Position numbers and translations under genes: made by a program | Assembly (NCBI RefSeq): GCF_003312875.1 | Contig: NZ_CP015163.1 | Location: 8,990,001-9,054,000, forward strand | DNA: 64,000 bases | Reading direction: 5' to 3' | Source: Amycolatopsis albispora | GTDB lineage: Bacteria; Actinomycetota; Actinomycetes; Mycobacteriales; Pseudonocardiaceae | Part shown: piece by piece, positions 5,063-51,957 of the stretch | Position numbering within the stretch: position 1 is the stretch's first letter | How the letters are laid out: each line of letters opens with the position of its first letter | The notes under the pieces: generated by a model | The model's database searches: none | What the model was told of the DNA's origin: nothing | Seen by the model: only the letters and a program-made list of their open reading frames with translations

Positions 5063-5113
5063 ACACGAATGTGGCTTTCGGGGCGGAAAATGCCCCGAAA
5101 GCCACATTCGTGT
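5063..5113. repeat. Palindromic repeat copy 1 (GAATGTGGCTTTCG family)
   Basis: Perfect 22-bp inverted repeat, arms 5063-5084 and 5092-5113 with a 7-nt loop (GGAAAAT). It shares the core CACGAATGTGGCTTTCG with copies 2-4, but its stem tip is GGGGC instead of GAGACG. It fills the gap between convergent genes (stop at 5054, stop at 5120), a position suited to a bidirectional terminator. Confidence 0.93.
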
Positions 5114-5119
5114 CCGGGG

Positions 5120-6076
5120 TCAGGCAGGGGCGGCGCCGCCGGGGGTTTTGCCAGGGGAGTTCAGCTGCACGATCAGCGCCCCGCCCAGCAGGATGGCGGC
5201 GCCCAGCAGCTGCACCCAGCTCAGCGCCTCACCGAGCAGCACCCACGCCAGCCCCGCGGCGAGCAGCGGTTCGCACAGCCCCAGCACGCTCGCCACCGGC
5301 GCCGGCAGGTGCCGCAGCGAGGAAATCCCCGCCAGGTAGGCAAAAACCGTGGACACCAGCACCAGTGCGACCAGCAGCGCCCAGATCGGCGGCTGCCACG
5401 GGCCGAACCGCGCGGGCGCGGTCAGCAGCGAAGCGGGAATGGTCCACGGCGGCGCCACCAGGCACACCGCCACCGCGCCGACGATCATGCCCCAGGTGAC
5501 CAGGCCCAGCGGGTGCCGGTCGGCCACCGCGCGTTCCCCGAGCAGGAAGTACGCCGCCGAGCAGATCGCCGCGCCGACCCCGGCGAGCAGGCCGAAGGTG
5601 TCCAGCCGCAGTCCTTCCCACGCCTGCGCCACCATGGCGAGCCCGATCATCGCCAGCGCGATCCCGCCCCACATCACCCCGGGCAGCCGCACCCGCCGCA
5701 CGAACCGCACCCACAGCGCGATCAGCACCGGCGAGGTGAACTCCAGCAGGATCGCCACGCCCACCGGGATCCGGCTGGCCGAAATGAAGTAACACAGCTG
5801 CACCCCGGCCACGCCGAGCAGGCCGTACCCGAGCAGCAGCGGCCACTCCGCGGCACGCACCCGCAGCAGCGACGGCCGCGCGATGGCCACCCCGGCGGCC
5901 AGCACTAGCGCGGCCAGCCCGATCCGCGCCGCGGCCACCTGCTCCGGGCTCAGCCCGGCCAGCATCACCGGCTTGCCCAGCGCCCCGGAACTGCTGAAGA
6001 ACAACGCCGCGACCAGGATCAGCACCGTGCCGCGGCCCCGGTGGACGGGCAGGCGGGAACGCACCTCGGTGACCAT
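5120..6076 (-). CDS. EamA/DMT-family transporter
   Basis: 318 aa integral membrane protein with about ten hydrophobic segments arranged as two EamA repeats. Typical features are ALFFSSSGALGKP in the first helix and ALLLGGALI-type helices near the end. These are drug/metabolite exporters or amino-acid efflux carriers; the substrate cannot be told from sequence. Start chosen at the ATG (6076), which gives a short basic N-terminus before helix 1. An upstream in-frame GTG at 6100 would add eight residues and lacks a clear ribosome binding site. Confidence 0.88.
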   Translation of the reverse strand: MVTEVRSRLPVHRGRGTVLILVAALFFSSSGALGKPVMLAGLSPEQVAAARIGLAALVLAAGVAIARPSLLRVRAAEWPLLLGYGLLGVAGVQLCYFISASRIPVGVAILLEFTSPVLIALWVRFVRRVRLPGVMWGGIALAMIGLAMVAQAWEGLRLDTFGLLAGVGAAICSAAYFLLGERAVADRHPLGLVTWGMIVGAVAVCLVAPPWTIPASLLTAPARFGPWQPPIWALLVALVLVSTVFAYLAGISSLRHLPAPVASVLGLCEPLLAAGLAWVLLGEALSWVQLLGAAILLGGALIVQLNSPGKTPGGAAPA

Positions 6077-6148
6077 GGCCCGGACGATACGGCCCGGCAC
6101 CGACCATCCGGAAGGTGTTTTTCGTAACTGCCTAAGGCGCCTGGCTGG

Positions 6149-6985
6149 TTACGGCTTCCACGGGCTCACGGTGTCGGTCGGCCGGGTCGGGTCGTGGAAC
6201 CTCGGCGCGTCCATCTCGCCACGCCGCAGCGGAACCAGCCCGTCGGTGATCGCGCGCATGATCTTCGCGTGCGCGCGCACGCCCGCGCCCGGCCGCTCCG
6301 GCTCGATGTCGGACAGGTCGACCGGCTCGCCGAAGTGCACCCGGAACACCGGCCGCCGCAGCGGCGCGGTCAGCCCCGACTTCGCCAGCGGCACGATGTC
6401 GGCGGGCCCGGTCACCGTCTCGGTGCCCCAGTACACCGCCTCGTGCGCGCCCCACTGGCTGATCGGGATCACCGGCACCCCCGCGGCGATCGCCAGCCTG
6501 GCCGCGCCGGACTTGCCGCGTTCCGGCCACAGGCCGGGATCGTGGCTGATGCGGCCCTCGGGGTAGACGATGATCGGCGCGCGCGTGGTGCGCATCGCCT
6601 CGACCGCTTCGCCGAACTGGGTCAGCGCCGATTCGGACTTGCCGCGGTCGACCCGCAGGTGCCCGCTGGCCTTGAGCGCCGGGCCGATCACCGGGGCGTC
6701 CAGGATGCCGCCCGCCAGCATGAACCGGGGCGCGATGCCGATCTTGCGGCACGCGGCCATCAGCACGAACGGGTCGAACACGCCGATGTGGTTGGCGGCC
6801 ATCAGCAGCGGCCGGTCACGCAGGCCGGCGGGCACCTGACCGGTGATCCGCAGCCGGCCGACCAGGTTGACCAGGCGGTGGTCGATGGCGAGCATGGTGC
6901 GCCAGATCGCCGGGGCGGGGACCCGGCGATTCCCCCGGAGCCGCCCGTTCTCGTCGCGGTGGAGAGCGAACATGGGCCAGAGCAT
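6149..6985 (-). CDS. PlsC-like 1-acyl-sn-glycerol-3-phosphate acyltransferase family protein
   Basis: 278 aa. It carries the acyltransferase block I motif NHxxxxD (ANHIGVFD) and block III EGR (YPEGRIS); GGILDAPVIG and a PVIPISQWG segment fit blocks II and IV. The family transfers acyl groups to lysophosphatidate or related glycerolipid acceptors at the membrane face. The upstream frame stays open for 2 kb, antisense to ftsK, but family similarity begins only at MLWPMFALHRDE, so the ATG at 6985 (or 6973) is the start. It diverges from ftsK across about 110 bp. Confidence 0.88.
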   Translation of the reverse strand: MLWPMFALHRDENGRLRGNRRVPAPAIWRTMLAIDHRLVNLVGRLRITGQVPAGLRDRPLLMAANHIGVFDPFVLMAACRKIGIAPRFMLAGGILDAPVIGPALKASGHLRVDRGKSESALTQFGEAVEAMRTTRAPIIVYPEGRISHDPGLWPERGKSGAARLAIAAGVPVIPISQWGAHEAVYWGTETVTGPADIVPLAKSGLTAPLRRPVFRVHFGEPVDLSDIEPERPGAGVRAHAKIMRAITDGLVPLRRGEMDAPRFHDPTRPTDTVSPWKP

Positions 6986-7093
6986 GTCACGGTCGGTTTT
7001 CACCCGGTTTGGGGACCGGCCGATCGGTAACGTGAGAAATGTTCCCCGTGTGCTGCGAGTGGCAGATGTGACTGGACGGGACCGAGGGTTACC

Positions 7094-9595: not shown

Positions 9596-9614
9596 CCCCC
9601 GGCCGGATCCCGCG

Positions 9615-10088
9615 TCAGCTGGCGCCGAACTGCCGCACGGCCTGGTAGTAGGTCCAGGCGGCCGCGTTGCACGCGCCGGCGCCGTTGCAGATGTCCTTCA
9701 TGTCGTCGTAGAAGTTGTTGTCGATCCGCAGGCGGTTGCTGTCGGTGAACCGGCTCTGCCGCTTGTAGTTGCGGTAGCCGAAGTCGTGCCGCCAGCAGGC
9801 CTGCGTGAAGTTGTACCCCAGTGGCTTGTCGGGCGACCACGAGCAGGCGTCGGTCGACCAGTCCAGGTCGTTCGGGTAGTTGCCGCGGACGCTGACGAAG
9901 CCCGGCAGCGACTTGCTGAACAGGTAGTCGTCGGTCACCGCCCGCACGTCGATGGCCTGCGCGGTGCCCGCGCCGAGCACCAGGCTCCCGGCCACGGCGG
10001 TGGTCACGGTGAGCTTGCGCAGGAGGCCGCGAACTCGTCCGCGTGGTCTGCGGCGGGTGGCTGGCTCGGGCAGGGCGGTCACGGTCAT
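9615..10088 (-). CDS. Secreted prokaryotic phospholipase A2
   Basis: 157 aa. A twin-arginine-like or Sec signal peptide (basic MTVTALPEPATRRRP run, then a hydrophobic stretch ending in GTAQA) precedes the mature enzyme. The catalytic His-Asp pair is in ACWRHDFGYRNY, with a second acidic motif DNNFYDDMKD, as in the small actinobacterial PLA2 family. Four cysteines can form two disulfides. It hydrolyses the sn-2 ester of phospholipids outside the cell. ATG at 10088 chosen because GAGGGAG lies just upstream of it; the frame extends further but without signal-like sequence. Its stop is 20 bp from the convergent ftsK stop. Confidence 0.92.
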   Translation of the reverse strand: MTVTALPEPATRRRPRGRVRGLLRKLTVTTAVAGSLVLGAGTAQAIDVRAVTDDYLFSKSLPGFVSVRGNYPNDLDWSTDACSWSPDKPLGYNFTQACWRHDFGYRNYKRQSRFTDSNRLRIDNNFYDDMKDICNGAGACNAAAWTYYQAVRQFGAS

Positions 10089-10197
10089 CGCTGGCTCCCT
10101 CGCTGTGATCTCTCGACAGGGTGAGCACAGCATTCGGTAAGCGCTCACCAGCCGCCACCACCTTGCGTAGGAAACTCAGTGAATTCCTTCCAAAGGT

Positions 10198-11547: not shown

Positions 11548-11576
11548 GGAGTCTGTCTAGCACCAACGGAAGGCGG

Positions 11577-11606
11577 TTGTATCCGGTGAATCCGGCGCCA
11601 TACAGT
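11577..11606 (+). promoter_or_regulatory. Candidate housekeeping promoter for the LVIVD gene
   Basis: TTGTAT (11577-11582) and TACAGT (11601-11606) are spaced 18 bp, a fair match to actinobacterial sigma-70 boxes. They are followed by GGGAGG and the ATG at 11636. Confidence 0.4.
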
Positions 11607-11635
11607 ACCCAGGGCTGTTCACTGGGAGGTTGGCG

Positions 11636-12946
11636 ATGCTCCGCTCGTGTCTGACCCTGGTGGCGGTGGTCGCCACCGCCGTGGTCACCGCCCTGCCCGC
11701 CGGCGCCTGCGGTGAGGAGGACGGGCCGGAACCGAAGGCCGCGCCCGCCGCCGGTGCGCCCGGCGCGGTGAAGAACGTCGAAGCGGTCGGCAACGTGCCG
11801 GACGCCCAGGGCGCCATCGCGCTGGAGTTCCTCGACTACCACGGCCGGGACGTCATGGTGGTCTCCGGCGAGTTCGGCCTGAAGACCTACGACCTGGCCA
11901 AGCCCACCGCGCCGAAGTTGATCGGCGAGCTGAGCCTGCCCGGCCTGTGGGAGACCGAGAACACCGAGGTCGACCGCAAGCGCAAGCTGGTCTTCCTGGC
12001 CAGGGACCCGCGCGCGTTCGGCGGGAACACCCAGACCGGCGAGTCCGGCATCTACGTGGTCGACGTGGCCAATCCCGAGAAGCCTGTGGTGCGCAGCTAC
12101 GTGCAGGTGCCGGCCGGGCACACCACCAGCTGCGTCGAGGACTGCCGCTACCTGTGGACCGGCGGCCCGGCGAAGGCGGCCAACCAGCCCGCCGACTGGG
12201 GTGGCCGCCCCATCTGGGTGACCGACGTGCGGAACCCGGCCAAGCCGAAGGTCCACCCCGAGCCGATCGAGCTGGCCCGCAACGACGGCAAGACCGACTA
12301 CGTGCACGACGTGCAGGTCGACCAGACCGGCGTCGCGTGGGTGTCCGGCCGCGGTGGTGTGCGCGGCTACTGGACCGGCGGCTGGCACCACGACCCGGTG
12401 CAGGGCAAGTGGCGCAAGGCCACGCCGATCGCGCCGGTGCCGTACGCGGGTGGTGGCGTCGAGGAGACCGCCGCGCCGTCGAAGTTCATGCACAACAGCC
12501 TGCGCCCGATCGAGCAGGGCCCGTGGGGGCGGAACGACCTGCTCTACGCGGTCGAGGAGAGCTTTCTCGACGGGTGCGCGGGCGACGGTGTGCTGGTGAT
12601 CTCCTCGCTGGAGGGCTCCTACGAGGGCCAGGGCTGGCGGTCCACGCCGGAGAACCCGTTCCGGATGAAGACGGTCGGCACCTGGAGCGTGGCCGGGCAG
12701 GAGGGCAGCGACCCGTCCTCGGAGGACTGCTCGGCGCACTACTTCGACAAGCGCGGTGACATCCTGGTGCAGTCGTTCTACGCCCAGGGCACCCGCTTCC
12801 TCGACGTCAGCGACCCGACGGACCCGAAGCAGATCGCCTACCACCGGCCTGCCGACGCCGCGTCGTGGGCGCCGTACTGGCACAAGGGCCTGGTCTACGT
12901 CGCCGACAACACCCGGGGCGTGGACATCCTGAAGCTCGCTAGGTGA
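11636..12946 (+). CDS. Secreted LVIVD-repeat (beta-propeller) protein
   Basis: 436 aa. A signal peptide ends near residue 27 (ALPAGAC), followed by a Pro/Ala linker. The body has LVIVD-type propeller blades such as GIYVVDVANPEKP, IWVTDVRNPAKPK, RFLDVSDPTDPK and a terminal GLVYVADNTRGVDILKL. Such secreted propellers are common in actinobacteria and usually lack a known activity; no catalytic signature is visible. ATG at 11636 sits six bases after GGGAGG. Its last 8 bp overlap the 3' end of the convergent argA gene. Confidence 0.85.
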   Translation: MLRSCLTLVAVVATAVVTALPAGACGEEDGPEPKAAPAAGAPGAVKNVEAVGNVPDAQGAIALEFLDYHGRDVMVVSGEFGLKTYDLAKPTAPKLIGELSLPGLWETENTEVDRKRKLVFLARDPRAFGGNTQTGESGIYVVDVANPEKPVVRSYVQVPAGHTTSCVEDCRYLWTGGPAKAANQPADWGGRPIWVTDVRNPAKPKVHPEPIELARNDGKTDYVHDVQVDQTGVAWVSGRGGVRGYWTGGWHHDPVQGKWRKATPIAPVPYAGGGVEETAAPSKFMHNSLRPIEQGPWGRNDLLYAVEESFLDGCAGDGVLVISSLEGSYEGQGWRSTPENPFRMKTVGTWSVAGQEGSDPSSEDCSAHYFDKRGDILVQSFYAQGTRFLDVSDPTDPKQIAYHRPADAASWAPYWHKGLVYVADNTRGVDILKLAR

Positions 12947-13457
12947 GCTCCAGCAGCATCCGCGTGTTGCCGAGCGTGTTCGGTTTCACAAAAGGAAGGT
13001 CGAGGAACTCCGCCACCCCGGGGTCCACCGAGCGGCGCATCTCCTCGTAGACCTCCTGCGACACCGGCGCGCCGTCGATCTCGCGGAAGCCGTGACCGGC
13101 GAAGAACGAGGTTTCGAAGGTCAGCACGAACAGGCGGCGCAGGCCCAGGTCCACCGCGTGCTGGATGAGCCGGGCGACCAGCGCGTGCCCGATGCCCTTG
13201 CCGCGGGCGCGCTTGCCCACCACGATCGTGCGAAGCTCGGCCAGGTCCTCCCACAGCACGTGCAGCGCGCCGGCACCGACCACCTCCCCGTCCACTTCGG
13301 TCACCCAGAACTCCTGCACGCTCTCGTACAGGGTGACCAGGTCCTTCTCCAGCAGCACCCGGCCGGCGTCGGCGTCCACCAGCTCCTTGATCCGGCGGAC
13401 GTCGGCGATCAGGGCACGGCGGACGAGGACCTGGTCCGCTTCACGCTTGATTGGCAC
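12939..13457 (-). CDS. argA: Amino-acid N-acetyltransferase (N-acetylglutamate synthase, short GNAT type)
   Basis: 172 aa single GNAT domain matching the short mycobacterial ArgA (Rv2747 type), which makes N-acetylglutamate for arginine synthesis. Shared blocks are VLLEKDLVTLYESVQEFWV, ALHVLWEDLAELRT, the acetyl-CoA loop VGKRARGKGIG, LFVLTFETSFF and the C-terminal VKPNTLGNTRMLL. The GTG at 13457 starts the conserved part (VPIKREADQVLVRRA); a longer in-frame ATG at 13505 is less likely. Its stop codon overlaps the end of the convergent LVIVD gene by 8 bp, so the pair has no room for a terminator. Confidence 0.93.
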   Translation of the reverse strand: MPIKREADQVLVRRALIADVRRIKELVDADAGRVLLEKDLVTLYESVQEFWVTEVDGEVVGAGALHVLWEDLAELRTIVVGKRARGKGIGHALVARLIQHAVDLGLRRLFVLTFETSFFAGHGFREIDGAPVSQEVYEEMRRSVDPGVAEFLDLPFVKPNTLGNTRMLLELT

Positions 13458-13522
13458 GCCCGCAAACCTAGCTTGACGTTTGACCTGTTCGGCCGCGCGC
13501 TCCACCAGGGCGAGCCCCTGTT

Positions 13523-13581
13523 GATGTCACGAATGTGGCTTTCGAGACGTTTCGCGTCTCGAAAGCCACATTCGTGACATC
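13523..13581. repeat. Palindromic repeat copy 2
   Basis: Perfect 27-bp inverted repeat, arms 13523-13549 and 13555-13581 with a 5-nt loop (TTTCG). This is the longest perfect copy in the window. Unlike the other three it lies between divergent genes (argA start 13457, rimO start 13687), upstream of both, so terminator duty is not the obvious role here. Confidence 0.95.
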
Positions 13582-13686
13582 AGCCCGCATGATCACCACG
13601 GCCGCCTGGACGCGAGGAGCGCGAGCACGCGAGCCGGACCGTGCCTAGGACCGGCGCGCCGAGCGACGGCGGTTACGCTGATCCTC

Positions 13687-15135
13687 GTGCCTTCTTCCAC
13701 CACGAACGCGTCATCCAGCCCGCGGCGGGTCTCGCTGCTGACCCTCGGGTGTGCCCGCAACGAGGTCGACTCCGAGGAGCTGGCCGGCCGGTTGGCGGCC
13801 GGTGGCTGGGAGCTGGCCGAGGAGCCGGAGGGCTCCGACGTGATCGTGGTGAACACCTGCGGCTTCGTCGAGCAGGCCAAGAAGGACTCGGTGGACACCC
13901 TGCTCGCCGCCGCCGACACCGGCGCCAAGGTGGTCGCGGTCGGCTGCATGGCCGAGCGGTACGGCGCCGAGCTGGCCGAGAGCCTGCCCGAGGCCGACGC
14001 GGTGCTCGGCTTCGACCACTACCCGGACCTGGCCGAGCGGCTCGGTGACATCGTCTCCGGCCACGCCGTGCCGTCCCACGTGCCGACCGACCGCCGCAAC
14101 CTGCTGCCGATCAGCCCGGTCCAGCGCCCGGCCGCGGCCCAGGAGGTCGCGCTGCCCGGTCACGCCCAGGAGGGCTGGGGCCCGCGCGTGCTGCGCACCC
14201 GGCTGGACGACTCGCCGGTGGCCGCGCTGAAGATCGCCTCCGGTTGCGACCGCCGCTGTTCGTTCTGCGCGATCCCGTCCTTCCGCGGCTCGTTCGTCTC
14301 GCGCCGCCCGGACGAGCTGGTCGCCGAGGCGCGCTGGCTGGCCGAGCGGGGCGTCAAGGAGCTGTTCCTGGTCAGCGAGAACTCCACCTCCTACGGCAAG
14401 GACTTCGGCCGCGAGTTCGGCGGCACCAGGGCGCTGGAGCTGCTGCTGCCGCAGCTGGCCGAGATCGACGGCATCGAGCGCGTGCGCGTGTCCTACCTGC
14501 AGCCCGCCGAGACCCGTCCCGGCCTGGTGCGGGCCATCGCCACCACCCCGGGCGTGGCCACCTACTTCGACCTGTCGTTCCAGCACTCCAGCGAGACCGT
14601 GCTGCGCCGGATGCGCCGGTTCGGCTCCACCGACTCGTTCCTCGCGCTGATCGAGCAGATCCGCGAGTACGCGCCGGACGCGGGCATCCGCACGAACGTG
14701 ATCGTCGGCTTCCCCGGCGAGACCGAGGCCGACGTGGCCGAGCTGGAGCGGTTCCTGATCGGCGCGCGGATGGACGCGGTCGGCGTGTTCGGGTACTCCG
14801 ACGAGGACGGCACCGAGGCGGAGACCTTCGACGGCAAGCTCGACGAGGAGACCGTCGCCAAGCGGGTCGCGCGCATTTCGGCGCTGGTCGAGGAACTGAC
14901 CACGCAGCGTGCCGAAGAGCGCATCGGGGACCTCGTGGACGTCCTGATCGAGTCGGTCGAGGAAGGCCCAGGCGGCGAGGTGACCGGCCGTGCCGCCCAC
15001 CAGGCGCCCGAGGTCGACGGTGAGTGCGTGCTCGTCGACGCCGGTGACCGCGAGGTCGGGGAGTTGGTGCGCTGCGAGGTGACCGACTCCGCCGGAGTGG
15101 ACCTGATCGTGCGTCCGGTGGGCGCGGACCGGTGA
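13687..15135 (+). CDS. rimO: Ribosomal protein S12 methylthiotransferase
   Basis: 482 aa radical-SAM methylthiotransferase that thiomethylates an aspartate of ribosomal protein S12. Order: N-terminal MTTase domain ([14 protein letters not shown], cluster cysteines in NTCGF and VGCMAERYG); radical-SAM CxxxCxxC in CDRRCSFC near residue 185; then VGFPGET; C-terminal TRAM RNA-binding domain from about 410. GTG start at 13687. The stop overlaps the pgsA start (GTGA, 15132-15135), so the two are coupled. Confidence 0.94.
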
Positions 15136-19231: not shown

Positions 19232-20494
19232 GTGAACACACTTCCTCCCGAACCGGAGCCGGTACCCACGGCACCGCCGAGTGCTTTCCAGCGGGTGATC
19301 TCCGCCTACGAGCGCCTCACCGAAACCGATCGCGCGGGTGACTGGGAAACCCTGCGTGCCGAAGAGGACGTCCTGGTCGAGGCCAAGGCCATCGACGAAC
19401 GGGTGCGCGCGGGTGAGGACCTGCCGCTGGCCGGGCAGCTGCTCGCCGCCGGGGCGGGCACGGCGATCGCCGGACTGCCGGGTGACACCGGACTCGCCGA
19501 GGTCAGCACGGTCGCCGTGCAACGGCTGACGCAGGCCGGAGCGGTGGTGCTCGGCCGGGCCGGGAAGGACTCGGTGCCGGCCGTGGTGGTTTCCGGGGCC
19601 GCCGACCTGGGCGTGGAGAGCGGGATCCCGCGCCGGGAGGCCGCGTTCGCGCTGCAGGCCACGCCGGGGCTGATCCCGGACACACCGGTGCTCTACGCCC
19701 GCGAGCTGACCGCGGCCCGGCTGGCCATGGGCGTGGCCACCGCGGCCGATGCCTGGCCCGCGTCGTTCCGGCTGTCGGCCGGGGACCACCCGCGCGTGGC
19801 GGTGCCGGGGGTGGCCGAGCTGGCGCCGCTGCCGGTCGGGCTCCGGCGGTCGTTCGACGCGGTGGTGGCCGCCTGCGCCGCCTCCGGCATGCGCATCAGG
19901 TCCTTCGGTGAGCCGTTCGACGTGCTGCTCACCCCGGCCACCCTGGACCTGGCCGGGCCGGGGGTGCCGACGGTGTCGGTGCCGCTGGGCGAGGTCGGCG
20001 GTGAGCCGTTCGGCATCACTCTGGCCACCGCGCCCTACGAGGAGCAGCTGGCGCTGGACCTGGCCGCGCTGCTCACCGCGGCGCCCGCCGGTGAGCCGTA
20101 CGCGGCCGCCAGCGTGGAGTTCGCGGTGTTCGGGGAGCAGGTTCGCGGGCGCCCGCTGAGCGCGTGGCTGGCGGAGCTGGGCGCGCGGTACGCCGGGGAC
20201 GTGCTCACCGCGTCGCACTACCGGATGGTGCTGCTGGCCGGTCCCGAAGCCGGGGTGGTGCCGGGCGCGCAGTCGCTGTCCGGGGAGCGCTGGCGCATCT
20301 CACCGGCCGGGTTCGAGCAGCTGCGCGACGGGCTGAGCGCGCCGCTGCGGATCACCTCGGTGCGGCTGGAGAACGGGGTGTCGCTGCCCGCGATCACCTG
20401 CGACCCGATGGCCGAGAGCACCGAGCTGACCTTCTACCGGGACTGGCGCGCCTACCTGCGGCACCTGAGCACCGCCGGCCCGAGGTCGGCCTAG
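19232..20494 (+). CDS. Allophanate-hydrolase-like protein with degenerate amidase domain
   Basis: 420 aa. The C-terminal about 130 residues (VFGEQVRGRPLSAWLAELG, GERWRISPAGFEQL, FYRDWRAYL) match the C-terminal domain of AtzF/DUR1-type allophanate hydrolases. The N-terminal part aligns in outline with an amidase-signature fold, but the Gly-Ser-rich GGSSSG segment with the catalytic serines is missing, and the lysine of PFAVKDN corresponds to a Gly/Gln/Leu stretch (PLAGQLLAAG). It is also shorter than AtzF (about 600 aa). Probably non-catalytic or repurposed. GTG at 19232 follows AGGAAAGGA; earlier in-frame ATGs exist (19121). No urea carboxylase genes adjoin it. Confidence 0.75.
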   Translation: MNTLPPEPEPVPTAPPSAFQRVISAYERLTETDRAGDWETLRAEEDVLVEAKAIDERVRAGEDLPLAGQLLAAGAGTAIAGLPGDTGLAEVSTVAVQRLTQAGAVVLGRAGKDSVPAVVVSGAADLGVESGIPRREAAFALQATPGLIPDTPVLYARELTAARLAMGVATAADAWPASFRLSAGDHPRVAVPGVAELAPLPVGLRRSFDAVVAACAASGMRIRSFGEPFDVLLTPATLDLAGPGVPTVSVPLGEVGGEPFGITLATAPYEEQLALDLAALLTAAPAGEPYAAASVEFAVFGEQVRGRPLSAWLAELGARYAGDVLTASHYRMVLLAGPEAGVVPGAQSLSGERWRISPAGFEQLRDGLSAPLRITSVRLENGVSLPAITCDPMAESTELTFYRDWRAYLRHLSTAGPRSA

Positions 20495-20520: not shown

Positions 20521-20579
20521 GATGTCACGAATGTGGCTTTCGAGACGTTTGGCGTCTCGAAAGCCACATTCGTGACATG
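20521..20579. repeat. Palindromic repeat copy 3
   Basis: Perfect 26-bp arms 20522-20547 and 20553-20578 with loop TTTGG; the outermost pair (20521/20579) mismatches. Nearly identical to copy 2. It sits between convergent genes (stops at 20494 and 20607). Confidence 0.95.
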
Positions 20580-20606: not shown

Positions 20607-21656
20607 TCAGCGGTCGGACAGGCCCCGGTGGACGCGGCGCAGCAGGCCGGGGCCGTGCAGGGCGAAGCCGGTGTAGAGCTGGATCAGGCTCGCACCGGCG
20701 TCCAGCATGCGGGCGGCGTCGTCACCGCACATGATGCCGCCGACGCCGATGATCGGCAGCCTGCCGCCGGACTCCTTGTGCACGAAGGCGACCACCTCGC
20801 GGGCGCGAGTGGTGAGCGGGCGGCCGGACAGCCCGCCCGCCTGCTCGGCGATGCCCGCCTCGGCACCGATGACGCCCTCGCGGCTGAGCGTGGTGTTCGT
20901 GGCGATCAGGCCGGAGACGGCGTGTTCCTCGCACACCTCGATCAGCTCGGCGAGCGCTTCGTCGGTGAGGTCGGGCGCGACCTTGACCAGCAGCGGGGTG
21001 GCCAGCTTGCCCGCCTTCGCGGCGAGCGAGGCCGAGGTGGCCTGCAACTCGTTGAGCAGTTCGCTCAGCGCACCGCGGTCCTGGAGGCTGCGCAGACCGG
21101 GTGTGTTGGGGGAGCTGACGTTCACCGCGAAGTAGTCCGCGTGCGGGTACAGCAGCCGCAGCGACTCCTGGTAGTCGGCCACCGCCTCGTCCAGCGGCGC
21201 CGCCTTCGACTTGCCGATGCTCACGCCCAGCGGCACGGGTGGCTTGCCGGTCCGCTCCAGCCGTTCGGCCAGCGCGGCCGCACCCGCGTTGTTGAAGCCC
21301 ATCCGGTTGATCACCGCGTCGCTGCCGGGCAGGGCGAACAACCGCGGCCGCGGATTGCCCGGCTGCGGCAGCCGGGTCACCGTGCCGACCTCGACAAAAC
21401 CGAAGCCGAGCGCGGGCCAGGCCCGCAGCGCGCGCCCGTCCTTGTCCATGCCGGCGGCCAGGCCGACCGGGTTCGGGAACCGGACGCCGAACACCTTCAC
21501 CGGCCGCTCGGCACCGTAGACGCGGTGCAGCGCACGCAGGGCGGGTTCGGCCGCGGCGAGCCTGCCGAGCGCGGTCACGGTGCGTTCGTGCACCAGCTCG
21601 GCGTCGTTCTTGCTCAGGCGGTAGAGCGCGGGGCGGACCAGGTTGTCGAAGAGCAC
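20607..21656 (-). CDS. pyrD: Dihydroorotate dehydrogenase (quinone), class 2
   Basis: 349 aa FMN enzyme oxidising dihydroorotate to orotate with quinone, at the membrane. The N-terminal amphipathic region ([13 protein letters not shown]) marks class 2. Motifs: [29 protein letters not shown], the Ser-containing [20 protein letters not shown], and GVGGI near the FMN phosphate. GTG at 21656 chosen; the upstream GNAT gene ends at 21659, two bases away, so they form one unit. Confidence 0.95.
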
Positions 21657-21658
21657 GG

Positions 21659-22228
21659 CTACATGGTGCCGCACCGGCTCTTCCACTCGTCCTCGAGCAT
21701 GGCGTAGACGAACTCGTCGCCCCATTCGCCCTTGAACACCTCGGCCTCGCGCAGGTGGGCCTCACGGCGCATGCCGAGGCGCTCCATCAGGCCCCAGGAG
21801 GCGGTGTTGCGCGCGTCACACCGGCCGCAGATGCGGTGCAGGCCCAGTTCCTCGAAGCCGAGGCGGAGCAGCTCGGTCGCCGACTCCCTGGCGTAGCCCC
21901 TGCCCTGGTGGTCGGGGTGGAAGACAAAGCCGAACTCGCCCTGCCGGTGCGCCCGGCTGAGCCACTGCAGGTTGAGGTCGCCGATCAGCTGCCCGGTTTC
22001 GGCGAGTTCGACGGCCACCGCGAGGAACTCGCCTTCGCGGTCCAGCGTCGAGTTGCGGATGCGGGTTTCCAGCGCCAACGCGGATTCCTCGCGGGTACGC
22101 GGTTCCCAGTAGAGGAAGCGGGCCACCTCGGGCCGCGACTGGAAGTCGTTCAGCTCGTCGAGGTCGGCGGGGGTGAACGCCCGCAGGATCAGGCGCGCCG
22201 TCCGGATCGGATAGGCGGGTCGGAGCAA
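21659..22228 (-). CDS. GNAT N-acetyltransferase, RimJ/RimL type
   Basis: About 189 aa. The N-terminal [14 protein letters not shown] is the RimJ/L hallmark, followed by [21 protein letters not shown] (acetyl-CoA loop) and [14 protein letters not shown]. It could acetylate a protein N-terminus, an antibiotic or a small amine; the substrate is unknown. The TTG at 22228 with GGGGA four bases upstream is my preferred start; an in-frame ATG at 22288 would add 20 unconserved residues. It is probably co-transcribed with pyrD. Confidence 0.85.
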
Positions 22229-22431
22229 GGTTCCCCAGCTTCGGTGGTGGTGTTGGGTTTCCCCGGTGCGCCTCCCGCACGCCGTCAAACGCGCGGGCCC
22301 GAGCCGGACCGTTTCTCGGGAGCACCGGGGAACCGGTGACTGCCTGGTATTCGCTGGCAGGCAACAAAACGAAGCAGGGTACGAGCCGACAGGTGGCCGG
22401 AGTCGCCTGCTTGGTCAGTCCAATCGTTCTG

Positions 22432-22449
22432 CTGTCCGCTAGCGGACAG
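22432..22449. promoter_or_regulatory. 18-bp perfect palindrome, candidate operator
   Basis: CTGTCCGCTAGCGGACAG, with no loop, in the 284-bp gap between the adenosine deaminase stop (22513) and the GNAT start (22228). It lies about 200 bp upstream of the GNAT-pyrD unit. Symmetry without a loop favours a dimeric regulator site over a terminator. A smaller TGCCTG/CAGGCA inverted repeat lies between it and the GNAT gene. The rest of the gap shows nothing I can assign. Confidence 0.5.
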
Positions 22450-22512
22450 TCACCTCACGAGTCCTGTTGATATTCAACTTCGGACCACCTCCCTTCTCGT
22501 GTACTGCCCACG

Positions 22513-36739: not shown

Positions 36740-36947
36740 CACGCGGCCGCCGGCACCCACGCCGTCGGGGGGCGGGGGTCCCACCGGCCGCGAGGAAGTA
36801 CGAGTTCCGGCTTCGCGGATGCCGTCAGGCCTCTGTCCGCTCAGTGGCCCTGGTGCACCTTCCCCGGCACCAGGTTCTCAGCGGGCGGGCGGAGACCTGG
36901 CGGCATCGGCGTTTTCCGCCGGTCGATCCAGGAAGGGGGTGGGTGTT

Positions 36948-37898
36948 GTGGCCGAGCACGTTCCGGTGCTGCTGGACCGGATCCTCGAGCTGTTCGCCCC
37001 CGTCCTCGGCAGGCCCGGCGCGGTGCTCGTCGACGCCACCCTCGGCCTCGGCGGGCACTCGGACGCCCTGCTCGCCGCGCACCCGGAACTCACGCTGGTC
37101 GGCCTCGACCGCGACCCGGCCGCGCTGGAGCGTTCCGCGGAACGCCTGCGCCGCCACGGCGACCGGGTGCACCTGGTGCACGCGGTCTACGACGAACTGC
37201 CCGACGCGCTGGCCGGGCTCGGCATGTCCACTGTGGACGGCCTGCTGTTCGACCTCGGCGTCTCCTCGATGCAGCTGGACCGCGACGAGCGCGGCTTCTC
37301 CTACGCCAGGGACGCCCCGCTGGACATGCGGATGGACCCGACCACCGGGCCGACCGCGGCCGACGTGCTGAACACCTATCCGCCGGGCGAACTGGTCCGG
37401 ATCCTGCGCGAGTACGGCGAGGAGCGGTTCGCGCAGCGAATCGTCAAGGCCATCGTCGCCGCGCGGGAGAGCGAGCCGTTCGAGCGCAGCGGCAGGCTGG
37501 TCGAACTGCTCTACTCGGCGGTGCCCGCGGCGAGCAGGCGCACCGGCGGGCACCCGGCCAAGCGCACCTTCCAGGCGCTGCGGATCGAGGTCAACGGCGA
37601 GCTGGAGGTGCTGCGGCGGGCGATGCCCGCAGCGCTGGACGCGCTCGCGGTCGGCGGCCGGATCGTGGTCGAGAGCTACCAGTCGCTGGAGGACCGCCTG
37701 GTCAAGCAGGCACTGGCGGCGAAGGCGAAATCCCGCACCCCCGAAGGACTTCCGGTCGAGCTGCCCGGGCACGGGCCCGAGCTGCGACTGCTGACCCGGG
37801 GCGCGGAACAGGCGAACGAAGCGGAAATCGAGGCGAACCCGCGAGCGAGCTCGGTGCGGCTGAGAGCCGCGGAGCGGATCGGAGAGGCGGCAAAGTGA
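36948..37898 (+). CDS. rsmH: 16S rRNA m4C1402 methyltransferase
   Basis: 316 aa. [14 protein letters not shown] opens the protein; SAM motif I is [29 protein letters not shown] and the substrate motif [17 protein letters not shown] follow. [15 protein letters not shown] and [13 protein letters not shown] finish it, all RsmH-specific. It methylates N4 of C1402 in the ribosomal P site. GTG at 36948 chosen from two close GTGs (36939 also possible). The stop overlaps the next start (GTGA). Confidence 0.95.
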
Positions 37899-40609: not shown

Positions 40610-40620
40610 GGGATCTGGGG

Positions 40621-41661: not shown

Positions 41662-41663
41662 GT

Positions 41664-43427: not shown

Positions 43428-43455
43428 CCGGGCCGCCGGCGGGTACCCGGACGGC

Positions 43456-43950: not shown

Positions 43951-43989
43951 GCGGTTGTCAACGGGCCCGTTCGCGGGTACGCCGGGAGT

Positions 43990-44178
43990 ATGCGTGAACA
44001 ACACCGCCGGCTCGGCGAAGACGACGACGAGGACCAGCCGCTGTCGGCGGAGGTGCCCCGGCCGCCCCATCCCGATCTGGACCCGCCGGGCACCAAGGAC
44101 GTCGATACCAAGAACCTGCCCAACACCGACGACGTGGAACTACCGCCCACCAGCGAAAAGCCCGAACCGCCCGACTAG
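43990..44178 (+). CDS. Small acidic Pro-rich protein, hypothetical
   Basis: 62 aa, acidic and proline-rich (EDDDEDQPLSAEVPRPP, then DPPGTKDVDTKNLPNTDDV), likely disordered. A GGGAG lies very close to the ATG (one base), weak for a ribosome site. Codon choice looks like a real gene but the short length leaves doubt. Confidence 0.5.
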   Translation: MREQHRRLGEDDDEDQPLSAEVPRPPHPDLDPPGTKDVDTKNLPNTDDVELPPTSEKPEPPD

Positions 44179-44265
44179 GGAGAGTGTTTGACCGGCTTGG
44201 GCGCCGGTGCCGGTGCTGGAGCGAGCTGACGGCCCACCGCAAGCGGCTCCGCCGTTTCGTCCCGG

Positions 44266-47346: not shown

Positions 47347-47397
47347 GTCCGCACCGTACCGGCGCTTCCGCGGCGCCGCTGAACTCGGCGGCGCGCG

Positions 47398-47429
47398 GGT
47401 GCCCCGGCGGGAGAGGCCGCCGGGGCACC
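47398..47429 (-). terminator. Strong hairpin after the M14 carboxypeptidase
   Basis: Perfect 13-bp arms GGTGCCCCGGCGG (47398-47410) and CCGCCGGGGCACC (47417-47429), 6-nt loop, 12 bp past the stop at 47442. No T tract, as usual in high-GC actinobacteria. Confidence 0.8.
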
Positions 47430-47441
47430 GTCAGGGGTGGT

Positions 47442-49928
47442 TCAGCCCCGGTCGCGTTCCTTGGTGGCGCGGGCCGAGCGGGTGCAGACCTCGCCCACGT
47501 CCACCGTCTGCCCGCGGTCGGCGAACACGTCGGTCAGCCCGACGATCTTGCCGCGGGGTGAGGTGCAGGTGAGCGTGTACGCCTCCTTGGGCCCGTAGGT
47601 GGTCGGCAGCGGCGAGGCGAACTCGACGCGGCCGGTCCAGTCGTCCGGGTTCGCCGGGTCCACCTGGTCGTAGTTGACAAAAACGGCCAGGTAGTCGCCG
47701 GCCGGCGGGTCGAACATGACCGCGCGCTCGGAGCGCGTGTTGCCGTTCGCCGACTGGGTGACCAGCTTGCCGGTCGAGTCGAACACGTAGACGTCCCAGT
47801 CGGTGGCCGTGCTGGTCCAGTCCACCGCCACGGTCAGCTTCCCGTTGTCCACCGCGGGCAGGCCGTCGACGTGGAACGGCACGCTTTCCACGTTGACGTC
47901 GTCGCTCGGGTAGTCCTGGTTCTCCGCGGGGACGCCGGGCGGGTTGGCCAGCGGGAACCCGGCCTGCGCCGGGCCCTGCGGGTCACGGCCGTAGCGTCCG
48001 GCCACGTACGGGCGCGTCGACGGGTTGACCGACCAGGCGAACCGGCCGCCGGTGGTGGTCAGCTTCGAATCCAGCTTGTCGGTCACGTAGATCGGCGCGC
48101 CGGTCGAGCCGTCCGGGTTCTGCACCGGCGAGGTCGGCGTCTGGAAGGTCTTGTGCAGCTTCAGCTCGTAGCCCTTGGGCGCCGAGCCGATCAGCGTGGA
48201 GTGCGCCGCCGGGTCGGCCGCGTTGGCCAGCATGTCGATGAACGCCTGCCGGTTGCCGCCCTTGCCCGCGCCGGCCGCCGGGGCGATCCCGGCGTACTCG
48301 GCGATCACGCCGTCGGCGAACGGCGGGTGGAACTCGTTGGGGCCGATCTCGAAGGTGAAGCCCCAGCCGCCGGTCGCCCAGTACGACCAGTCCTCCGTGG
48401 ACCCGGTGGTGTCGTACAGCGCCCACGACGGCTGATTGGTGTAACCGTTGCGGGAGGCCATCTTCGCGCCGAGCGCTTCGTAGGCGGGCTCGTCCAGCGG
48501 CGGCCGGACGTCGGCCACGCCGGGCACGCGCAGCACCAGGTTCGAGTAGGTGTGCAGGGTGATCAGGTTGGTCACCTGGCGGGTGGACACGATCGAGCGG
48601 ATGTTGCGGGTTTCCGGTTCGGAGAACGGGCCGGAGCCGCGGAAGGTGTCGTCGCTCCACGCCGTGGCGGCGCCGGGGCCGCCCCAGAACCCGGCGTAGT
48701 TGCGGTTCGGGTCGGTGCCGCGCAGCCTGCCCGCCGGGTTCGCCTTGCACACGCCGGTCGCATACTGCGGTGGTGAGTCGGCGGCGTTGCAGTTCTTCCG
48801 CTTCATCTCGTAGTCGAACAGGGTGAAATCACCGCGGGGCTCGGCCTCGCGGGAGATGGAGAAGCCGTCGGGATTGACGATCGGCACCACGATGTTGCGG
48901 GTGCGCCCGACCAGGTTCTTCAGCTCGGCATTGTTGGTCCGGTAGCCCTTGACCAGTTCGTGCAGCCATTCCATGGCGTGCTCACCGGCCGGCCATTCAC
49001 GCGCGTGGTGCACACCCATGGTGAAGTTCACCGGCTTGCCGTCGGCCGGGTTGGTGACGTTCGTGGCGACCTCGGCGGCGACCACGTCACGGCCTTCGAT
49101 GGTGGCCTCGGGCAGTGTGAACGCGCGCACCAGGCTCGGGTTGTTGCGCGCGAGTTCCTTGACCTCGAACTCGTAGTCGTAGAGGTGGCGGTAGGCGGTG
49201 CGCCCGGACGGCAGCACCGACGGCGGCGCCTTCGCCGCGAATTCGGCGTCGGTTTTGGCGTTCTGCACCGACTTCGCCGACAGGTCAGCGATGACCACAG
49301 TGGACTGCAGGCCGCTCGCGGCCAGCTTGCCGCGGTCCTCGTCCCCGGCCAGCACCACCTCGACGCCGGTGGCGTCGGCCTTCTCGGTCACGTCGAGGCC
49401 GAGGTCGAGCAGCCGGTCCTTGTCCGCTTTGGACGGTGTGTGCACGCGGACCAGTTCGGCCTTCTGCGGCGCGGTGCCCTGCGGGGTCAGCGCCAGGAAG
49501 TCCACGCCCAGCACGGCGTTGCGCGCCTGACCGGCGTAGCGGCAGGCCTGCACGACGAGCTGCTGGCCCTTCTTCACGAAGCTCTCGGCGAGTTCGCGGG
49601 TGCGCAGCCCGGCGGAGGCGGCGACCACCTTGCCCGACGCCTTGTCGAACACGGCGAGGTCCCAGTCGCCCTCGCTGCCGCGTGACGGGGAAAGCCGCGC
49701 CTGGACCAGGCCGTCCACCGAGGCGGTCACCTCGCGGCGGTCCGCGCCGGGCGCGTGCTGGGGCAGTGGCGCGGCGAAACAGGATCGGCTGACCGACTTG
49801 TCCGCTCGGACCACGTTGCCCGCGGCGGTCGCGGTGGTGGCCGAAGCCAGCCCGCCCGCGAGCACGACGGCGAGCGCGCCCGCGGTGACCCCGCGCCGGA
49901 TTCTTCTTCGTTCCCGTGAATTGCCCAC
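47442..49928 (-). CDS. Secreted M14 zinc carboxypeptidase, large multidomain
   Basis: 828 aa. Basic N-terminus and signal peptide (VTAGALAVVLAGGLASA), an N-terminal prodomain, then the M14 domain. Zinc ligands are His and Glu of GVHHAREWPAGEHAM and a His in ITLHTYS; substrate-binding DPNRNYAGF and the catalytic Glu of FTFEIGPNEF are intact. The last 250 residues form beta-sandwich domains typical of secreted actinobacterial peptidases. It digests extracellular peptides from the C-terminus. GTG at 49928 with GGGAGG upstream; the longer frame (to 49985) would spoil the signal peptide. Confidence 0.92.
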   Translation of the reverse strand: MGNSRERRRIRRGVTAGALAVVLAGGLASATTATAAGNVVRADKSVSRSCFAAPLPQHAPGADRREVTASVDGLVQARLSPSRGSEGDWDLAVFDKASGKVVAASAGLRTRELAESFVKKGQQLVVQACRYAGQARNAVLGVDFLALTPQGTAPQKAELVRVHTPSKADKDRLLDLGLDVTEKADATGVEVVLAGDEDRGKLAASGLQSTVVIADLSAKSVQNAKTDAEFAAKAPPSVLPSGRTAYRHLYDYEFEVKELARNNPSLVRAFTLPEATIEGRDVVAAEVATNVTNPADGKPVNFTMGVHHAREWPAGEHAMEWLHELVKGYRTNNAELKNLVGRTRNIVVPIVNPDGFSISREAEPRGDFTLFDYEMKRKNCNAADSPPQYATGVCKANPAGRLRGTDPNRNYAGFWGGPGAATAWSDDTFRGSGPFSEPETRNIRSIVSTRQVTNLITLHTYSNLVLRVPGVADVRPPLDEPAYEALGAKMASRNGYTNQPSWALYDTTGSTEDWSYWATGGWGFTFEIGPNEFHPPFADGVIAEYAGIAPAAGAGKGGNRQAFIDMLANAADPAAHSTLIGSAPKGYELKLHKTFQTPTSPVQNPDGSTGAPIYVTDKLDSKLTTTGGRFAWSVNPSTRPYVAGRYGRDPQGPAQAGFPLANPPGVPAENQDYPSDDVNVESVPFHVDGLPAVDNGKLTVAVDWTSTATDWDVYVFDSTGKLVTQSANGNTRSERAVMFDPPAGDYLAVFVNYDQVDPANPDDWTGRVEFASPLPTTYGPKEAYTLTCTSPRGKIVGLTDVFADRGQTVDVGEVCTRSARATKERDRG

Positions 49929-50049
49929 TGCCAGGCCCTCCCAGAAAGTTGTTGCCCCGCAGGGGATTCGCCCCGCCGGGTGCACCGGATGAGGACTGTA
50001 GACCGTTGATCGGGAGAAGGCGATGGGCCGAAAGCCGGATCTGCGTCGT

Positions 50050-50535
50050 TCAGGCCGGGGGCCGGACGCGGCGCTGCTTCACGGCTTCGGTACCGCCGAG
50101 CCGGCGGAGAATTTCCGCCAGCAGCGCACGGGCGTCCGCCACCCGGTCCGCCCCCCACTCCGCCTCCATTTCGGACTCCAGTGCGGCCCGGTGCCGCCGG
50201 GTGGCCGCCACCGAGGCGCGCCCGAATTCGGTCAGTTCGAGCAGGCGGGCGCGCGCGTCGTCCGGGGCGGGTTTCCTGGTCAGCACGCCGCGGCGGTCCA
50301 GATCGGCGACCGCTTTCGACGCGGCCTGCTGCGTGACGCCCATGCGCTCGGCGAGCGCGGAGACGGTCAGCGGCCCGGCGAGCACGTGCTGCACCACGAA
50401 CCCGTCGTTGAACCGCAGGTCGCCGAAACCGTCCTCGCCCAGCCGCCGCTGCACTTCGCCGGTCATCGCCCAGCCGGCGAACAGGGCGAGCAGGGACAGT
50501 TCGGTGCGTTCCGGCGCTACCGGTGGCTCGCTCAT
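50050..50535 (-). CDS. MarR-family transcriptional regulator
   Basis: 161 aa winged helix. LTVSALAERMGVTQQAASKAVADLD is the recognition region (shown by its ALAERMGVTQQAASK core), with RKPAPDDARARLLELTEFG as the wing. MarR proteins repress divergent genes until a small ligand binds. It diverges from the PNPOx-like gene across 19 bp, and a 16-bp palindrome covers that gene's start codon. ATG at 50535. Confidence 0.92.
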   Translation of the reverse strand: MSEPPVAPERTELSLLALFAGWAMTGEVQRRLGEDGFGDLRFNDGFVVQHVLAGPLTVSALAERMGVTQQAASKAVADLDRRGVLTRKPAPDDARARLLELTEFGRASVAATRRHRAALESEMEAEWGADRVADARALLAEILRRLGGTEAVKQRRVRPPA

Positions 50536-50540
50536 CGGGC

Positions 50541-50563
50541 TAAAGTACACAACCATGGTTGTG
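50541..50563 (+). promoter_or_regulatory. MarR operator over a leaderless start
   Basis: CACAACCATGGTTGTG (50548-50563) is a perfect 16-bp palindrome centred on the ATG at 50555. TAAAGT (50541-50546) fits a -10 box whose start site would fall at or next to the A of the ATG, implying a leaderless mRNA. MarR bound here would block initiation. Confidence 0.7.
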
Positions 50564-51055
50564 GAAATGGCAAGACCCCCGGTGGAGGTGGTGGCCGAGT
50601 TCGTGCGGGTCGCCCATCGCGTGGTCTGGTGCTCGATGGCCACCGTCGACCGGCTCGGCCGCCCGCGGTCGCGCGTTGTGCACCCGTACTGGGAGCAAAC
50701 CGGTGACGGCCTCATCGGATGGGTGACGGCGCGGCCGACTCCGTTGAAGCGCGCGCACCTCGCGCGCACGCCCTATGTGTCGTGCTCGTACTGGGATCCG
50801 ATGCACGAGATCGCCGTGGCGGAATGCGAAGCCGAGTACGCCGGATCGCCGGAGAACCGGCGGCACGTGTGGGAGCTGTTCGGCGCCGCGGACCCGCCGC
50901 TGGGCTTCGACCTGCGGATACTCGGCGTGGACGAGCCGCTGGACGAGCGGTTCACCGTGGTGCGGTTGCGGCCGTGGCGCCTGCGGACCGCCGAGCTGGC
51001 GTGGCGTCGCACGGGGTCGGCCATCCGGCTGATGGGCTCCGGGCCGAAGGAATGA
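50555..51055 (+). CDS. Pyridoxamine 5'-phosphate oxidase-like flavin/F420-binding protein
   Basis: 166 aa split beta-barrel. VWCSMATVDRLGRPRSRVVHPYW is the N-terminal sheet (ATVDRLGRPR core), and GWVTARPTPLKRAHLARTP and SCSYWDPMHEIAVAEC follow. Such proteins bind FMN or F420 and reduce or degrade small substrates; the true PdxH signature is not present. Expression is probably controlled by the divergent MarR gene. The start codon is inside the palindrome. Confidence 0.82.
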   Translation: MVVEMARPPVEVVAEFVRVAHRVVWCSMATVDRLGRPRSRVVHPYWEQTGDGLIGWVTARPTPLKRAHLARTPYVSCSYWDPMHEIAVAECEAEYAGSPENRRHVWELFGAADPPLGFDLRILGVDEPLDERFTVVRLRPWRLRTAELAWRRTGSAIRLMGSGPKE

Positions 51056-51125
51056 CCCACTGGTGATCTCCACCCCATAGGGTGACGGCTGTCAGCAAAT
51101 CGTCGTCCACGGGGAGATTACGAAA

Positions 51126-51890
51126 ATGCTTCGCAAAACCGGGGTTTTGGTGGCCGGACTGGCCGCCGCGGGAGCGGTGCTGGTGCCGGGGGTCGCGGCG
51201 GCGGGCGGGCCGACGCCGTTCATCATCGGCGGGCACGACGCCACCGAGGACTATTCGTTCATGGTTTCGCTGCAGCAGGGCGGGAAGCACTTCTGCGGTG
51301 GCTCGCTGATCGGCGAGGAGTGGGTGGTGACCGCGGCGCACTGCGTGCAGGGTGCCAAGCCGGAGGAGGTCACCACGCGGATCGGCGCGCGGGAGCACGC
51401 CAGCGGCGGCACCGAGGCCGGGGTGAGCCGGATCGTCGTGCACCCGGACTACGCCGCGCAGCAGCCGGGCGCGGACATCGCGCTGGTGCGGCTGGACAAG
51501 AAGGTGACCGAGCAGCCGATCAAGATCGCCGAGGCGACGGGTGAGGCGGGCACGGCGACCCGGATCCTGGGCTGGGGCGAGCACTGCGCGGAGGAGAACT
51601 GCGGTGCGCCAGACATCCTGCAGGAGCTGGACACCAAGGTGATGCCCGCCCAGGACTGCCGCGACTTCGCCGCGGGGAAGGAGATCTGCACCGGGTCGGA
51701 CACGCCGGACGCGATGGGCTGCTACGGCGACTCGGGCGGGCCGCAGATCAAGGGCCGCACGGGGGAGTGGGAACTAGTCGGCGCCACCAGCCGCGACGGC
51801 GACGAGGACCCGAAGTGCGCCAGCGGCCTCGGCGTCTGGACCGACGTCACCGTCTACCGCGACTGGATCGCCGAGCAACAGGCCAGCTAA
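51126..51890 (+). CDS. Secreted S1-family serine protease
   Basis: 254 aa. Signal peptide (1-26), short propeptide, and mature start at I33 (IIGGHDA). Catalytic triad H72 (TAAHC), D117 (DIALV), S203 (GDSGGP). Three disulfide pairs are possible. The residue equivalent to trypsin Asp189 is Met197 (AMGCYGDSGG), so trypsin-like cleavage after Arg/Lys is unlikely; a chymotrypsin-like preference is more plausible. Streptomyces-type extracellular protease. ATG at 51126 after GGGGAGA. Confidence 0.93.
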   Translation: MLRKTGVLVAGLAAAGAVLVPGVAAAGGPTPFIIGGHDATEDYSFMVSLQQGGKHFCGGSLIGEEWVVTAAHCVQGAKPEEVTTRIGAREHASGGTEAGVSRIVVHPDYAAQQPGADIALVRLDKKVTEQPIKIAEATGEAGTATRILGWGEHCAEENCGAPDILQELDTKVMPAQDCRDFAAGKEICTGSDTPDAMGCYGDSGGPQIKGRTGEWELVGATSRDGDEDPKCASGLGVWTDVTVYRDWIAEQQAS

Positions 51891-51898
51891 GGCGGGCG

Positions 51899-51957
51899 GA
51901 TGTCACGAATGTGGCTTTCGAGACGTTTGGCGTCCCGAAAGCCACATTCGTGACACT
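51899..51957. repeat. Palindromic repeat copy 4 (one mismatch)
   Basis: Arms 51901-51925 and 51931-51955 with loop TTTGG; one stem mismatch (C at 51935, where copy 3 has T). Located between convergent genes (stop 51890, stop 52059). Its right arm is also unit 1 of the tandem array that follows. Confidence 0.92.

Follow-up and report, generated by a model that had tools for sequence, protein, structure and literature searches.

REPIN-like 57-bp palindromes form an abundant, probably mobile population in Amycolatopsis genomes without a RAYT transposase

Introduction

The described systems closest to the repeats reported here are REPINs, which are hairpin-forming doublets of repetitive extragenic palindromic (REP) sequences, and the CGTC REPs. 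REPINs are described (PMC3116915) as inverted doublets that also leave singlet remnants, occur in tandem clusters, have a spacer able to form a hairpin and showing compensatory changes, and adopt hairpin or clover folds. According to PMC3733652, REPs favour convergent and unidirectional gaps, and CGTC REPs form head-to-head dimers in such gaps, have no associated transposase, and combine stems of 8-9 bp, which begin with two A/T positions, with loops of 4-5 nt and, in most cases, a CCA tail. The same paper names untagged REP-like families for M. tuberculosis, D. radiodurans and others, and leaves open, where the CGTC repeats are described, by what means REP-like repeats lacking a REP-associated tyrosine transposase (RAYT) are dispersed, if they are. 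The CGTC repeats are a precedent for REPs without a transposase. Here we describe a 57-bp palindromic element of Amycolatopsis albispora, four copies of which lie in a 64,000-nucleotide stretch (assembly GCF_003312875.1, contig NZ_CP015163.1; G000:C1:8,990,001-9,054,000 in our numbering) of a 9,121,443-base single-contig genome. This whole stretch is hereafter called the window.

Amycolatopsis is a genus noted for antibiotic producers. Within the open-licence PMC literature, no paper was found that describes these repeats in Amycolatopsis or Pseudonocardiaceae by its title or the start of its abstract. In three Amycolatopsis papers (PMC12282000, PMC8685341 and PMC11056570) "palindrom" appeared only in connection with CRISPR, and the main text of PMC3733652 held 0 occurrences of "actinobacteri". 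We read the palindromes, with a probability of roughly two in three, as a population of small mobile REPIN-like DNA elements without a RAYT. This reading draws on repetition, fixed length, dialects, paired changes, copy-number differences of a spelling, filled and empty gaps, and a location mostly behind genes, all of them seen in the sequence.

Results

A sequence-only reading of the window had claimed four dispersed palindromes sharing a 17-mer and its inverted copy. All four, with the common 17-mer and its inverted partner, were seen where that reading had placed them; the window held eight exact 17-mer matches and one with two mismatches, compared with a mean of 0.12 in 100 shuffles. A scan for palindromes with a stem of at least 16 pairs, at most one mismatch and a loop of at most 9 recovered just these four from the 64 kb; a single base-shuffled window gave none. 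Genes were called with a home-made GC-periodicity caller (56 genes, 90% coding in the window), and on these calls three copies occupy convergent gaps and one a divergent gap, as the sequence-only reading had stated. Beyond the core, the copies fall into two types, here termed dialects A and B. They are listed in their 57-bp register, with no strand assigned, together with two features at copy 4:

Copy 1, 5060-5116: dialect B doublet in the convergent gap between genes 4461-5054 (+) and 5120-6076 (-); arms by palindrome scan 5061-5115, 23 pairs, 1 mismatch.
Copy 2, 13524-13580: dialect A doublet in the divergent gap between genes 12939-13457 (-) and 13687-15135 (+); arms by palindrome scan 13520-13584, 29 pairs, 1 mismatch.
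Copy 3, 20522-20578: dialect A doublet with a 26-bp mismatch-free stem in the convergent gap between genes 19295-20494 (+) and 20607-21686 (-); arms by palindrome scan 20522-20578, 26 pairs, 0 mismatches.
Copy 4, 51900-51956: dialect A doublet with one A/C mismatch in the convergent gap between genes 51177-51890 (+) and 52059-55643 (-); arms by palindrome scan 51901-51955, 24 pairs, 1 mismatch.
Tandem array, 51930-52045 (-): decaying half units running out of copy 4, period 32, 3.6 copies.
Half site with two mismatches, 52032-52048: overlapping the copy 4 array.

Genome-wide, the exact 17-mer occurred 604 times and the same pattern read backwards 0 times. With 299 sites forward and 305 reverse, a strand polarity of the sites was rejected. 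The genome search for the 17-bp core with an inverted copy, which the sequence-only reading had suggested, returned 230 palindromes (inverted partner 5-30 bp away), and 276 palindromes shared the 13-bp heart of the core. Core-to-core length was 49 bp in all 105 palindromes examined, though a spacer of 0-60 bp was permitted.

The element spans 57 columns, consisting of an outer block (7), GAA-N7-TTC (13), an inner block (8) and a centre (1), followed by the mirror image. It joins a small imperfect hairpin (block-GAA-N7-TTC-block) to an inverted copy of itself, with the two 13-mers 30 bp apart. Dialect A reads R-TGT-CACGAATGTGGCTTTCG-AGACG-loop and dialect B reads GRA-CACGAATGTGGCTTTCG-GGGC-loop; 50 copies divided into 31 A and 19 B, and a third, rarer spelling (CTATG...CATTG) carried the same 13-mer. 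Conservation dropped just outside the element, from 1.88 bits at -3 to 0.90 at -4 and 0.65 at -5 in dialect A, and from 1.65 bits at -3 to 0.15 at -4 in dialect B. Among 280 13-mers examined, 128 had a neighbour at exactly 30 bp (118 inverted, 10 direct), and every other spacing up to 120 bp occurred at most twice per orientation. In the direct doublets the 13-mer is flipped within one arm. A triplet was found at a single locus (L375), with three consecutive 13-mers in 30-bp steps, and solitary hairpin units (singlets) were present too: one intergenic gap (L074, 11957-12401) combined a doublet with three solitary units inside ~100-bp repeats. Seven of the 230 exact half sites examined were classed as solitary, two of which have a partner one base farther off, and one near-copy with an insertion was seen.

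RNA folding of window copies 1-4 gave -51.9, -57.2, -52.9 and -50.8 kcal/mol. As single-stranded DNA (ssDNA), a whole doublet folded at -33.5 kcal/mol, a GTTGC-dialect half at -10.3 kcal/mol and a singlet at -7.5 kcal/mol; of 200 shuffles each, 0 folded as well as the half and 1 as well as the singlet. The outer and inner blocks of one half were complementary at 102 of 156 positions over 26 distinct dialect halves, compared with 77.6 after shuffling inner blocks (0 of 5000 as high), although the dialects are related by descent and this is not a clean probability. In 30 aligned elements (57 columns, no gaps), 17 of 26 stem pairs had changed on both sides, a count that 0 of 500 shuffles reached. 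The sequence-only reading had named an absence of further copies, or freely varying arms, as grounds against it. The outcome is mixed: further copies are plentiful and arms hardly vary within one dialect, yet from one dialect to another the blocks flanking the 13-mer differ on both sides while still pairing.

Variation was uneven along the element. In 71 dialect A copies, each taken in its better orientation, departure from the majority was 14% over five loop bases and 0.0% over 34 core bases, a contrast inflated by the choice of most loci for exact cores. Of 730 half sites with at most two mismatches genome-wide, 604 were exact, which amounts to ~1-2% change for each core base; by this measure the loop varies several times as much as the core. 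The stems are either under selection or homogenised.

The spelling is local and the layout widespread. The exact 17-mer occurred in 2 of 60 genomes, own included, as well as in two close relatives outside that set (G073 and G092), and 24 of 80 genus genomes, counting the own one, carried at least 10 half sites with at most two mismatches (control 0-2 per strand). A covariance model built from the 30 aligned elements had matches in 79 of the 80 genomes of the genus and, in a sample of the order, in 31 of 298 (11 from the genus itself, 10 from elsewhere in the family and 10 from other families), although a model with a 26-bp stem may also pick up unrelated long palindromes. The best matches mostly had the identical 57-column layout in other letters. 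From 55 matched loci, 40 palindromes with at least 24 of 28 pairs were retained, and 15 weaker matches were dropped (eleven of 39-82 columns and four of 57 columns with just 21-23 pairs). In four other genera of the family, each genome repeated a spelling of its own (copies read: four in G116, three in G185, five in G246, eight in G323). Scanning named genomes with a sister-clade spelling gave at least 120 stretches; the 80 listed ones, used here, were all from Amycolatopsis (family Pseudonocardiaceae), and the element was 57 bp long in 83 of 83 cases. The own-clade 13-mer pair had no match in the named-genome collection, which may omit near genomes. A plasmid or phage origin is unsupported, as blastn searches with copy 3 gave no hit in the plasmid or the phage collection, from which near records may be absent.

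Close relatives differed strongly in copy number. Their aligned window stretches are ~81-94% identical, and palindromes with this 13-mer numbered 276 in the own genome, 101 in G073, 125 in G092 and 7 in G004. The comparison of orthologous gaps that the sequence-only reading had called for found no palindrome in 12 of 20 comparisons with these three relatives and one in 8 of 20. These comparisons cover a minority of the 123 own elements; a gap was occupied at a palindrome score of at least 12 (two fell just below, at 11 and 10) and was counted twice if two own elements share it. The copy 4 gap was occupied in the own genome and in all three relatives, each retaining the GAATGTGGCTTTC arm, with dialect A in G073, a doublet with other outer and inner blocks in G092 and an imperfect one in G004. 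The copy 1 gap in G073 held a palindrome of other sequence, a candidate family member at most, and the alignment left no gap at the copy 1 site in G092. Among named Amycolatopsis loci, 2 of 74 elements were comparable with another listed locus: at one shared site A. pittospori and A. coloradensis carried different dialects, and at the other an A. pittospori doublet corresponded to a 15-bp gap in A. roodepoortensis.

The elements lay mostly behind genes. Of the 105 own palindromes, 62 occupied convergent gaps, 36 tandem gaps and 7 divergent gaps, with 0 within genes, compared with 51 convergent, 212 tandem and 57 divergent among 320 background gaps from the window and fourteen 20-kb stretches picked regardless of elements (convergent versus rest, Fisher p 1.3e-16); most of the 105 loci were fetched for the exact core regardless of gene order, and two copies share a gap in some cases, which makes them not fully independent. 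The convergent excess holds in the unselected stretches too, where 11 exact doublets comprised 6 convergent, 3 tandem and 2 divergent. In own tandem gaps, 30 of 36 copies were closer to the upstream stop (median 30.5 bp) than to the next start (167 bp). The 40 retained palindromes from other genomes (38 genomes) were 21 convergent, 19 tandem and 0 divergent, and the 83 elements of named Amycolatopsis were 40 convergent, 28 tandem and 1 divergent, with 14 too close to the stretch edge; 19 of those 28 tandem-gap elements were closer to the stop.

A search for the Y1_Tnp domain (PF01797) of RAYT/Y1 transposases gave 0 positives among 80 genus genomes, including the own genome, and 5 among 14 control genomes; a RAYT-driven REPIN is therefore rejected for this genus. 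Outside the genus, PF01797 gave three hits in 2 of 9 element-bearing genomes, and no element unit lay beside the Y1 gene at the two of these three loci that were read. The distance between a Y1 hit and an element is ~5.6 kb in G246, with no such unit adjoining the gene; this locus may be an IS605-type arrangement. Of 114 elements, 8 had GTAG or CTAC no more than 12 bp away from the core (~7.1 expected), which is no enrichment of a GTAG tag. No clear target-site duplication appeared in 50 copies over 70 offset and length settings: the lowest nominal values (0.002, 0.012 and 0.028) all came from dialect A, with no excess of full-length duplications there. A miniature inverted-repeat transposable element (MITE) with target duplication is unsupported, the three nominal excesses in 70 settings being inconsistent.

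The eight genes flanking copies 1-4 carry ordinary Pfam domains (DUF305, EamA, GNAT acetyltransferase, UPF0004/radical SAM/TRAM, allophanate hydrolase C-terminal domain, DHO dehydrogenase, trypsin and CobN), and none is a transposase, in line with the earlier claim that no transposase is near; the remaining window genes were not scanned for transposases. No Rfam family reached its gathering score at copies 1-4. A mechanically derived open reading frame (ORF) of 279 aa, 5069-5908 (+), has its start ATG within copy 1 and runs antisense through a called gene; it is likely spurious. Elsewhere in the window, the actinobacterial small RNA family Ms_IGR-5 (RF02471) matched at 22263-22502 (-) with 73.9 bits, and the mraW cis-regulatory RNA (RF01746) matched at 36811-36918 (+) with 66.9 bits, upstream of a called gene at 36948.

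Other repeats were noted in relatives. A different repeated palindrome with the core ATGAGTGGGGCATTACTTGC, possibly a cousin family, has three copies in 70 kb of a G073 stretch joined from L095-L098 (5066-5128, 17394-17440 and 56729-56781). Near position 2031 of the A. pittospori locus L243, a further palindrome (GTCGTGAGTGGCGATTCGGG and its inverse) adjoins an element and is partly common to A. coloradensis. Degenerate motifs such as GAGTGTGGAACTC, arrayed with a nearly even spacing and resembling decayed half units, were seen in the G073 gap orthologous to copy 4 and in another gap.

Discussion

Like REPINs (PMC3116915), the element is an inverted doublet of short hairpins that folds into one long hairpin, and it is extragenic and present in many copies, with compensatory changes, singlets, tandem clusters and two alternative folds; its halves fold strongly (GTTGC half, singlet) or weakly (dialect A half). 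Unlike REPINs, it has neither a GTAG-type tag at the hairpin foot nor a RAYT in the genome, RAYT/Y1 being absent from 80 of 80 genus genomes, and its entire 57 bp make one near-perfect palindrome in a register constant over several genera. By analogy the element may work like a REPIN, but we do not file it as one. With CGTC REPs (PMC3733652) it shares the lack of an associated transposase, head-to-head dimers, and convergent or unidirectional gaps, and a reading of the dialect A half as a CGTC followed by a hairpin is possible. Unlike them, the folded halves (one dialect A, one GTTGC, one singlet) break the stem, loop and tail rules given there, and dialect B and the GTTGC dialect have no CGTC. 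The untagged REP-like families named in the same source are likewise short palindromic repeats without a conserved tag.

The sequence-only reading had called the palindromes mobile or actively maintained, and REP-like. This has held up, given hundreds of copies, presence and absence among relatives, a rigid layout, paired changes and a location mostly behind genes. If the palindromes are a mobile population, the doublet would be copied to new sites by a trans-acting enzyme recognising the folded half units or the 13-mer; because none was found there, this enzyme would not be a Y1/RAYT transposase of the genus. Copies would survive mostly behind genes, where insertion may be harmless, and an RNA hairpin in that position could stop or shield transcript ends. 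Older dialects would decay or be replaced as a new one spreads. The element is perhaps used at transcript ends, where its sequence makes a terminator role plausible. More tentatively, and at somewhat less than even odds, the elements may be a RAYT-independent kind of replicating palindromic DNA: a 57-bp layout constant across one family, with letters rewritten per lineage on all arms at once, would then point to an undescribed recogniser that co-evolves with its hundreds of sites and copies them, be it a transposase, an enzyme that processes hairpins or a factor that binds DNA or RNA.

It is unlikely, though worth weighing, that the palindromes are instead non-mobile bidirectional terminators or 3'-end protectors of the host, kept by selection, with one hairpin serving both convergent genes and the 13-mer binding a host termination or processing factor. 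Intrinsic bidirectional terminators likewise place a stable hairpin behind convergent genes, and the convergent enrichment, the closeness to stop codons, hairpins of -51 to -57 kcal/mol and stems that vary less than loops would all be expected; the first 20 kb of the window are also no richer in T-tailed terminators than shuffles (4 versus 5.7). The terminator option of the sequence-only reading fits in location, but the hairpin has no T-tract, with T making up 0.096 of the 10 nt after it compared with 0.140 of the window. Unlike intrinsic terminators, the element is repeated and conserved in sequence, and a conserved 13-mer and a fixed 57-bp length would be needless for such a function. Copies of this spelling range from 276 to 7 among close relatives, and the 51 convergent gaps of the unselected stretches hold just 6 exact doublets.

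The other explanations have less in their favour. That the element is a MITE, a deleted insertion sequence moved via its terminal inverted repeats by a DDE-type or other transposase, seems improbable. It is like MITEs in being short, non-autonomous inverted-repeat DNA, intergenic and in hundreds of near-identical copies, but singlets and a triplet exist, the ends are modular (A and B differ) around a constant inner 13-mer, and no clear target-site duplication was found in 50 copies; this option of the sequence-only reading went unsupported, no search for a parent element having been made. Hairpin-driven template switching and gene conversion alone, without an enzyme, could keep arms identical and spread dialects among old sites, and would account for the 13-mer flipped in an arm, the tandem array at copy 4 and the dialect differences at shared gaps. 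We hold this to be very improbable, since by itself it can neither fill empty gaps nor hold one 57-bp layout across genera. Uptake sequences occur as inverted pairs behind genes, with species dialects, and are also common as single sites within genes. The first two of these features resemble the present elements and would suit a signal maintained through transformation bias, but with 0 of 105 palindromes in genes and the few exact half sites classed as solitary (7 of 230), such an origin is extremely improbable.

Several observations weigh against a mobile REPIN-like population. No mover was identified, and movement itself is deduced from genomes that are ~81-94% alike in the window. The extra DNA at copies 2 and 3 exceeds 57 bp and no clean insertion was seen. 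The range of 276 to 7 concerns one 13-mer spelling, and G004 has other palindromes, with at least 70 covariance matches (both strands counted). A few mismatched copies are off register by one or more bases, and a lone dialect A half folds weakly as ssDNA (-3.8 kcal/mol; 20 of 200 shuffles as good). The greater variation of loops than of stems points to selection or conversion on stems besides spread. The gene contexts rest on our own caller, and the depletion of divergent gaps is not visible in the 11 doublets of the unselected stretches.

Taken as mobile REPIN-like elements, the palindromes bear on annotation, given the 279-aa ORF that starts from an ATG in copy 1, on strain typing and on the mapping of transcript ends. 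They would make Amycolatopsis home to a RAYT-less REPIN-like population, in a genus in which the enzyme that moves such repeats elsewhere was not found in 80 genomes. With an abundant RAYT-free repeat population at hand, and one spelling present 276 versus 7 times among close relatives, the question of how such repeats disperse becomes testable in this genus.

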